Of a stretch of 64,000 nucleotides of DNA, positions 56,134 to 59,100 are shown in pieces. The DNA comes from Pontederia crassipes (lineage: Eukaryota > Streptophyta > Magnoliopsida > Commelinales > Pontederiaceae). The stretch is taken from NCBI GenBank assembly GCA_030549335.1, contig CM060195.1, forward strand, positions 42,972,991-43,036,990. Direction: 5' to 3'. The notes beneath the pieces are model-generated. The model was not told where the DNA came from, did no database searches, and worked only from the letters and a program-made list of their open reading frames with translations. Made by a program: the position numbers and the translations under genes. Position 1 is the stretch's first letter. Each line of letters begins with the position of its first letter.

Positions 56134-59100
56134 ATGGCCTCGAAGCGGATCTTGAAGGAGCTCAAGGATCTGCAGAAGGATCCTCCCACGTCCTGCAGCG
56201 CAGGTATATGCAGAAAAGTTCGATCTTTTAGGTGCTTTTGTTTTTATGCTTCTTTTATATTCCGATCCTTGAGGTGGAACCTATGTCCAAGTATTTTGAT
56301 ATAACATATGTTCATGGCTTCATGCTAAATATTCGTTTGTGGTACATGCTGCGTGGCAAGGATTCTAGCCGTGGACTAAAAGGCGCTGGATGATAAAAAA
56401 AATGTCTTTTGATGTGGCCTGTTTAATGTATGATTTCGCATGATTAAAACACGAAGGGATTGATTGTCGACTGGCATTATTTTGGAATATGCTATTTTGT
56501 TTCATTTTATTTTTCTTTCGGCTATGACAAAATTTTTGCTTGTTCTTGGTTTGCAGCCGCGGATGATTGAGTTTGTTATATGTTCATCATGGTGAGAGCT
56601 CTTGTCTGCTATCATTAGGGAAATTTCTTAATGTTTTTGGGTGAATAATCACTTTTGGAACAACTTTTATAGTGTTTGTGGAATAAGATTACGGCGTCTT
56701 ATGCAGTAATGTAAAATTTGTACTCTGGGACTAATGCTAGAGAGTTCAAAAGTTTTATAATGTCAAGATTTTATTTCTCCTTCCTAGCCAGTCTGCTTCA
56801 AAGTTGACTTTTATGCATCAAATTTAGTTTATTTCTACATATAGGAACACTGTGATCATGGATTAGTCTGAAATTCATTTTTACTACCAAAATATGGCAT
56901 GATTTTATAATGCCACTTGATAGTCTGTTATTGTTCATAAATTAGAAAATGGAATGCTAGACCTTTTTAGTAATTTGTGTCCCTAGTGATTAGGTTGGTA
57001 TACTTTAAACTCTTTTGTCTAGCCTTTGCGTCCTCTAGAAATGTGAACTTTTTTTTTTCTCTCACTCATCATCGCTTGAATAGTTAAGTCTCTTCCATGA
57101 TAATCTTAAAGTGTGGGGACACTGTTTTAATTCTCAAAATCTATGAGAACAAATTTGTGCGAAGTTCATTTTTTAACTGAAATATGGTGTACAGTTGACA
57201 TTCTTTCATTCTTTGTTTATAATTTCTGGTGTTCTTCATAAATTATATAATGTGATATTAAACCTTTTTAGGAATATGTCTCTCTTATGAGGAATTAGGT
57301 TTGTATACTTTAAAATCTTTTGTTCAACCTTTCTTCTTATTGAAATTTGATTTTTTTTTCCTCTGTCGCTCATCATCTTCTTAATAGAAAAAGTAATGAT
57401 ATTTCAATAATTGGTGATAAATATCAAATGCTTCACGAGCTCTGTCAATTATACTCCGGCACGGGGCACAGGCCACAGGCCACGTGCATTCCGGTTGTTC
57501 TCCCATGCTATGCAAATTGACATCTGTGTAACCGACATACACTTTTTCTTCTTTTCTTTTTCTCTGGGTTCTTGATAAGTCATGATAAGAGAGAATTCAA
57601 TGCCCTAATCACTCTCTCTCCTTGCTGCCACTTTCTATATATTAGTTTCAGTAGTTTGCCTCTTTGTCATCTTAGTTTCTCTTTCTTCTGCTACTGGATC
57701 GATCAGTATACTGTGATTAGAATCAGATTTTTGCAATGACTAGAAAACGTATATTGAAAGATTTGAGGGAGATGAATGAGGATCCTGCATTTCATTGCAG
57801 TGGAGGTATTTTGTGCCAAAATCCTATAGTATATTCTTCTAAAACAATAATCCTTTGGTATATTATCTGTTCTGCAATCTCTTAGGAAACGTATCAAGTT
57901 TTCTTGGATTTTGATGAGTCTTCTGAAATTTTAATCCATTTTCATGATGTTTGTAATTGTATGAGTCACTGTCAGTTTCTTTCCGAATGCATTCTCCATC
58001 TTTCTATAGTGCTTGTGTTCCCTTTGAATGTTGTTATACGACTAGGTAGATGTGATTGTAGAATTCTAAATTCAAATGGTTTAATCACTGGAAGTTATAT
58101 TATTTTTCCTTGTTATAAGCATGATATACTGGGCTAATTATTACACCAACATTGTCATCCATACACCCATCTTAAAAGGAAAAGAAAAACAAAAAGAACT
58201 GAATGTAATATTTTCCGAACAGTTGAAATTACCTTTCTTAACGTACATTGTCATTCAGTATGTTTTTCTTATTTAATAGATACACTGGTACTGTGATTAC
58301 CTATTTTGCACCTCTTCAAAAAGGAAGATTTCTTCGTTTAAAAAAAAAAGAGGAAGATTTCTTATGCCGCATGTGGTCATGTATGCAAGTCAGCCGTTTC
58401 TGAGAAGCATTCCTTTTATTTTCTATTTAATGTTAGGTTAATTAGGCCAATTTTAGGCTTCTACAAGTTTTTAAAACCATCAATGATTTCATGTTATGTT
58501 TGTGAATCAAGATGCATGATTGCAAATTATTTTATACCTTTATATCAAAACTTTGTGGTTGTTATCTTTTCAATTGATGATGTCTAGATTGCCCATTGCA
58601 TGTTTCAGCCAGGTCTTTGCCATTCTGGTCTTAAATATAATGGGCCTTCTCAATCATCTAAAAACTTAAACTATTAGATGATTCAATGTGATTCTTTTAT
58701 ATTCATATCTTAACACCTAAGAATTGATAAATCATGACATATGTTAAAATAAACAATGGATGCTGCAAAAATTTGATGCAAAATCCTCTATTTTTTATTT
58801 AACTCTCAGAAAATTTATATTTTGTGCCTTAACCAGTTGGCGTGTTGCCTTCTACACCGTGGTAAGCCAATTACACAGGATTCCCTCAAAAAAAAGTAAT
58901 TACACTTTATGCAAGTGGAGAAGAGAGTTTTTATTGGTTGGGACTCTGCATAATAGGATTCCTTTCTATATCACATGCCAACTACATTTTCTACTGGAGA
59001 TACTATGTTAGAATTGTATTGTGATTTCTGTTTGGCAAATTCAGGTTTCTGGTATCATAGTAAGGGTTAAATAAAGCCTCTGCCTTTTACTAACTTCTGA

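Follow-up and report, generated by a model that had tools for sequence, protein, structure and literature searches.

Within the first intron of a UBC8-type (group VI) E2 gene, we identified a second first coding exon, which is confirmed as a real, old and intact duplicate of the canonical exon that begins the core domain. On balance, we favor the explanation that this old tandem duplicate of coding exon 1 is used in its place as an alternative first coding exon, the two being mutually exclusive, and that a promoter within the intron probably drives it. The gene lies on the plus strand of the window, by which we mean the whole 64-kb stretch of DNA that was analyzed (C13:42972991-43036990, in a 1.13-Gb genome of 43 contigs whose pairing suggests a recent tetraploid monocot), and it has four coding exons and a 148-aa product. 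The coding features are as follows.

56134-56203, +: canonical coding exon 1, 70 nt from ATG to GT donor, 23 codons plus 1 nt
56204-59344, +: intron 1, 3,141 nt, containing the second exon
57736-57805, +: second (candidate alternative) first coding exon, 70 nt, beginning with ATG, 23 codons plus 1 nt, donor GAG/GTATTT
59345-59472, +: coding exon 2, common to both forms (spliced gene model)
60802-60906, +: coding exon 3, common to both forms, with the HPN motif and the active-site cysteine (aligned without gaps to AtUBC8 chain 4x57_A)
61496-61639, +: coding exon 4 and stop, common to both forms (spliced gene model)

The initial annotation had placed an exon at 57736-57805 inside intron 1, and its coordinates, 70-nt length, ATG, donor and phase all proved correct. 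Spliced to exon 2, this exon gives a 148-aa E2 that differs from the canonical protein only in its first 23 residues, residue 24 (G) being common to both; the proposed identity of 12 of the 24 N-terminal residues was likewise borne out, with 23 residues exchanged in the swap. At the nucleotide level the two exons are identical at 42 of 70 positions, or 15/24, 18/23 and 9/23 at first, second and third codon positions, respectively. When every 23-codon frame without a stop, on either strand of the 64-kb window (exon 1 itself apart), was scored against canonical exon 1 using BLOSUM62, the second exon scored 62 and the runner-up 23, which rules out a chance resemblance. The two exons are adjacent, homologous and equal in length and phase, as duplicated mutually exclusive exons are, and with two compatible donors and a common gene body the arrangement would be that of a type I alternative first exon. 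Exon 1 of another E2 gene was also considered as the donor of the duplicate; the best of the 28 other family exons matched at 45/70 nt, compared with 42 for the gene's own canonical exon, and no donor was identified.

Both predicted proteins matched UQ_con (PF00179) over residues 5-141, with 186.1 bits for the canonical and 177.8 bits for the second isoform. The closest solved structure to the second isoform was AtUBC8 (4x57_A), to which it aligned without gaps over 148 aa, and the HPN motif, active-site Cys85 and backside Ser22 were all present.

Comparison of the second exon with canonical exon 1 yielded a pS of 0.77 and a pN of 0.32, meaning that synonymous sites are saturated while replacement sites are conserved. 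Maximum likelihood omega was 0.16-0.17 (2dlnL of 7.1-8.1 against omega = 1), a pairwise estimate that takes in the canonical branch, itself extremely conserved. Because synonymous but not replacement sites are saturated, we concluded that the second exon is old and was long under purifying selection. Codon positions 1 and 2 also differed from position 3 (Fisher p = 0.013). In simulations of neutral drift at 0.41 changes per site, the probability of observing no indel was 0.0018 at the intron's own indel rate (indel-to-substitution ratio of 22 to 101), and when indels were left out, the probability of retaining an open frame, M1, the GT donor and the observed protein similarity was 0.013. Synonymous differences between the C13 gene and its C3B paralogue were 0.33, 0.46 and 0.68 for exons 2, 3 and 4, and 0.20 for exon 1, while exon 1 differed from that of C3A by 0.07. 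The exon thus seems to have been duplicated no later than the C13 and C3B genes split, with the caveat that exon 1 is unusually slow and the estimate comes from ~14 sites. As a separate observation, canonical exon 1 was identical to that of C3A and C4A (L012, L054) at 69/70 nt, with synonymous differences of 0.36-0.40 in exon 2, pointing to either gene conversion or unusual synonymous constraint in exon 1.

The counterpart of the second exon in the homeologous gene lies at C14:11193346-11193415. Genome searches with the exon sequence, at the DNA and the peptide level, gave two matches apiece, the exon itself and this counterpart; both searches score only the best candidates and missed canonical exon 1, and so are insensitive. 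Across intron 1, 3.4% of aligned sites differ between C13 and C14. There is one difference in the 70 nt of the second exon (57780 G>A, synonymous) and none in those of canonical exon 1 (0/70), and both predicted isoforms are identical in protein between the homeologs. For the second exon ~2.4 differences were expected, and its count was equaled or undercut in 213 of 600 intron windows of the same 70-column width; for the leader and exon together (240 columns), 33 of 566 intron windows were as similar. Recent constraint on the second exon is thus not demonstrated by the homeolog comparison, and purifying selection is supported for the longer history of the exon. Start, frame and splice site, the loss of any of which would mark a pseudo-exon, are all intact in C13 and C14.

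Other features of the locus were seen alongside these. At 59963-60196, in intron 2, there is a 214-nt insertion that C14 lacks. It is flanked by perfect target-site duplications of 20 nt (TGTTATCAAGGAAATTAGAA), carries a GTTGTTGTT tail and resembles an Au-type SINE. Intron 1 of the C14 gene (L003) carries a 608-nt insertion absent from C13 (C13 counterpart 58109), ~300 nt 3′ of the second exon, with a 19-nt flanking repeat and a tail ending ...CCTAGTGGGATAAGGCTTTGTTGTTGTTG as in the 59963-60196 insertion. Intron 1 of the C13 gene contains an old tandem duplication of ~300 nt at 56860-57390, the pieces of which are 72-87% alike.

We surveyed group VI copies in the genome from 47 exon-2-like matches, 30 of them assigned loci, and covered in addition two of the 17 weaker matches, which lie in regions L048 and L051. 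Exon 1 was recognizable in 29 copies, the window gene included, and is followed by an intron in 24 of these. The other five (L032, L033, L035, L036 and L037) pass directly from exon 1 into exon 2, and for two of them, on C4 and C17, an intron-bearing copy is no more than ~5 kb away. The second exon was present in two of the 24 intron-bearing copies (C13 and C14) and in none of the other 22 at a BLOSUM62 score ≥ 45, nor was it found in the L048 and L051 regions. No exon 1 was found at L038, a diverged, pseudogene-like copy. Tandem group VI E2 genes occur on both homeologs at C3:23823000-23838900 and C4:23904000-23922000 (L050, L051, L054, L055, L038), and on each a diverged pseudogene-like copy sits between them.

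Local alignment of the second exon to intron 1 of nine copies revealed no exon relics scoring better than shuffles. The sequence 5′ of C5 exon 1 scored 44 against the second exon (shuffles, 35 ± 3), but in a heavily gapped alignment. In C4B and C3B, the full-block alignment was equaled by 25 and 81 of 300 shuffles, the second exon at the co-linear site by 392 and 40 of 500, and the leader (57600-57735) by 92 and 75 of 500, respectively. A degenerate exon pattern had no match in virus and prokaryote contig collections, a result that says nothing on plants.

Four further features bear on how the second exon might be brought into a transcript. The leader intron with its noncoding leader exon, the conserved block and the candidate acceptor were absent from the initial annotation, as was the homeologous copy on C14.

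55962-56089, +: apparent leader intron in the canonical 5′ UTR, 128 nt, donor GAG/GTAAGC, acceptor CTTTAG/GCTT, as read from the sequence
~57488-57600, +: conserved noncoding block 5′ of the second exon, which could be a proximal promoter or an enhancer within the intron (four-way alignment)
57636-57642, +: TATATAT, candidate TATA box, its sole occurrence in intron 1, kept in C14 and not in C3B/C4B
57674-57675, +: candidate acceptor, TCATCTTAG/TTTC, 15/18 pyrimidines, best of seven AG candidates in 57600-57735, kept in C14

The TATA-like element claimed upstream of the second exon was located at 57636-57642. TATA-like motifs are cheap in such sequence: the looser TATAWAW is present at two places in intron 1 and at 270 on the plus strand of the window. 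The segment 57640-57735 is free of ATG, and 18 nt 5′ of the second-exon ATG comes an in-frame TAG, with a 1-nt deletion between the two in C14. Farther upstream, a query of 57470-57600 scored 84 and 79 against intron 1 of C4B and C3B (49 ± 4 for comparison), with 0/500 dinucleotide shuffles as good in each. Its match in C11 intron 1 was weak (3/500 shuffles as good), and it did not stand out in C3A, C1, C6, C4A or C5, where 53, 66, 238, 327 and 455 of 500 shuffles, respectively, were as good. The core of the block reads GGTNNTTCTCCCATG ... TGACATC ... ACATA ... TTTCTC ... ATAAGTC. The TATA box, the ATG-free leader and the conserved block all stand 5′ of the second exon, a promoter-like position that we counted in favor of its having its own promoter; both such a promoter and transcription of the exon are inferred.

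The block need not be the promoter of the second exon, because it is kept in the C3B and C4B introns, from which the TATA box and a recognizable exon are absent, because it evolves no more slowly than the rest of the intron (4/119 sites differ between C13 and C14 in 57482-57600, equal to the intron average), and because another, unrelated stretch is also conserved. This second stretch (~58319-58601, roughly 58300-58600) is shared with C4B and C3B, with z of 4.0-6.2 and 2.8-5.0, respectively, depending on query and shuffle; as it is unrelated to the exon, conservation is not confined to the exon's neighborhood. The block would be either an ancient promoter that has kept its exon in the C13/C14 lineage alone, or an enhancer within the intron, with the second exon placed after it by chance. 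A search for structured RNA in 55800-59400 returned no Rfam match at E up to 1.

The same second isoform could be produced from the ordinary promoter, if the apparent noncoding leader exon (ending at 55961) joined either 56090 or, past canonical exon 1, the acceptor ending at 57675, which would make the two coding exons mutually exclusive internal exons. We consider this unlikely, although it has several points in its favor. The apparent leader intron is common to six copies of the gene group, as both splice sites (GT donor, TAG acceptor) have aligned equivalents in C14, C3A, C3B, C4A and C4B (the donor being GTGCG in the C3 and C4 copies); it was not evident in C5, C6, C1, C7 or C11. The candidate acceptor ending at 57675 is pyrimidine-rich, having 15/18 compared with 7, 13 and 13 pyrimidines at the gene's real acceptors, is unchanged in C14, and has the second-exon ATG as the first ATG after it. 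On the other hand, it is TTAG and not CAG, and the position of the TATA box, 33-39 nt 5′ of it, suits a transcription start there. The promoter switching envisaged in the initial annotation is plausible: the TATA box and conserved block lie upstream, but a leader exon joined to the acceptor at 57675 would lead to an identical protein, and the block also occurs in paralogous introns without a recognizable exon. Between an own promoter and leader-exon splicing, we lean toward the promoter.

Slightly more doubtful, in our estimation, is that the second exon was once used as an alternative and is now silent or decaying, as a young pseudo-exon. Among the first 23 residues, 14 are invariant in the 29 family copies; the second exon retains eight of these (M1, R5, K8, L10, D16, P17, C21 and S22) and alters six (A2, E9, D12, L13, P18 and A23), and 11 of its residues are unseen at their positions in the family, which together could mean relaxed constraint. 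The absence of the exon from the other intron-bearing copies and the undemonstrated present constraint in the homeolog comparison (1/70 against ~2.4 expected) point the same way. Against decay, neither homeolog has lost the frame, ATG, donor, TATA box or leader, and the sole difference in the exon is synonymous.

As to origin, and compatible with any of these readings, the second exon could be exon 1 of a tandem E2 gene of which the rest was lost, leaving two heads on one body. On C3 and C4 there are indeed group VI E2 genes in tandem, separated by a diverged copy, but remnants of E2 exons 2-4 were not found in intron 1 of C13 or C14 (tblastn, E up to 10), and we regard this origin as improbable. 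Finally, it is very improbable that the exon acts as a poison exon, whose inclusion between exons 1 and 2 would shift the frame, trigger mRNA decay and tune E2 levels: six of the seven candidate acceptors in 57600-57735 would shift the frame (e.g., those ending at 57675, with a 130-nt insert, and 57726, with a 79-nt insert), but that ending at 57706 (99-nt insert) keeps it, and such a role leaves unexplained an ATG-led frame of exon-1 length with matching phase and conserved replacement sites.

If the second exon is an alternative first exon with its own promoter, as we prefer, transcription would most likely start inside intron 1 at ~57665-57675, 30-40 nt 3′ of the TATA box at 57636, and the transcript would be spliced from 57805 to 59345. 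The predicted product is a full-length 148-aa group VI E2 with an altered helix 1 and helix1-strand1 loop. This isoform keeps K4, R5, L7, K8, D16, P17 and S22, so that K4/R5/K8 are indeed retained as first described, and the changes foreseen at positions 14, 15 and 18-20 are likewise present (Q14N, K15E, P18A, T19F and S20H). We take K4, R5 and K8 to mark the E1/E3 side of the E2. With the active site, the HPN motif, K4/R5/L7/K8 and S22 unchanged, the isoform would be expected to retain E1 charging and RING binding, while MUB binding and backside-ubiquitin binding would be expected to change. PF13881, presumably the Pfam family that holds MUB, has 35 exon-level matches in the genome.

The strong changes (K15E, P18A, T19F, S20H and A23G) fall at the end of helix 1, in the helix1-strand1 loop and in strand 1. 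Published structures assign this surface mostly to MUB and backside ubiquitin (PMC4996978, PMC6349121). MUB is a prenylated protein with a ubiquitin fold that anchors group VI E2s to the plasma membrane and holds them in check there. The contacts named between AtUBC8 and MUB3 in the N-terminal segment are L7, Q14, D16, P17, P18, T19, S22 and A23 (Lu et al., 2016, PMC4996978); according to the same account, contacts at P18, A23 and A35 are unique to MUB, and that at S20 is unique to ubiquitin. In UbcH5B, the Q20A substitution is reported to abolish stimulation by backside ubiquitin (PMC6349121). Four of the eight named MUB contacts are altered in the second isoform, in addition to S20H. By hand count, changes are not enriched at MUB contacts (4/8, compared with 8/16 other positions), and the MUB reading consequently rests on the kind of residue change and not on the number.

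It is from these contacts that we infer a biochemical effect. The claim in the initial annotation that the isoforms differ in E3 preference is weaker: K4, R5 and K8 are kept and the strong changes lie on a surface assigned mostly to MUB and backside ubiquitin. We favor a change in the binding of MUB and backside ubiquitin rather than in the choice of E3. It is tempting, if distinctly speculative, to suppose that one gene could encode two E2s: a MUB-held, uncharged form, and a promoter-switched, E1-charged form whose Q14N/P18A/T19F/A23G face would escape MUB and whose stimulation by backside ubiquitin would be altered via S20H. Were this true, the first exon chosen would determine where a major class of plant E2s is found and how active it is. 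Conservation among group VI E2s is extreme, and an old, open second exon amounts to a natural mutation set on one enzyme face; if it is transcribed, the two natural isoforms could show which surface serves MUB tethering, backside ubiquitin and E1 charging.

Human UBE2D3, an animal relative of the group VI E2s, has an isoform with an alternative N-terminus that arises from an alternative first coding exon. This isoform is not described in passages of PMC10920915 and PMC9790923 or among the literature matches listed. For plant group VI E2s, we found no description of an alternative first coding exon in the titles and abstract openings of the open-access literature matches listed; second-exon peptide strings were likewise not found in open-access papers. 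Passages of a rice UBC survey (PMC4406754) mention no such exon, and the string "alternative splic" does not occur in its main text.

The plant type I alternative first exons cataloged by Chen et al. (2007, PMC2174465) are mutually exclusive first exons with common downstream exons and an altered N-terminus, as proposed for the E2 gene. The main text of that survey does not contain "UBC", and "ubiquitin" appears in it twice, each time within a GO label (ubiquitin ligase complex). Those clusters were defined by cDNA, whereas the E2 second exon is known here from sequence alone. According to Table 2 of that study, the N-terminal change overlapped a functional domain in 5 of 137 rice and 1 of 99 Arabidopsis type I clusters; in comparison with the cases it presents, the E2 second exon is a homologous duplicate that encodes the start of the catalytic fold. 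Set against the AtUBC8 structure (PDB 4X57), the canonical isoform has the same first 24 residues and hence all eight MUB contacts named in the published account, while the second isoform keeps L7, D16, P17 and S22 and differs at the other four (Q14N, P18A, T19F and A23G). Compared with UbcH5B bound to backside ubiquitin (PMC6349121), S22, D16 and P17 are kept in the second isoform, and at the position of Q20 the canonical plant protein has S and the second isoform H.
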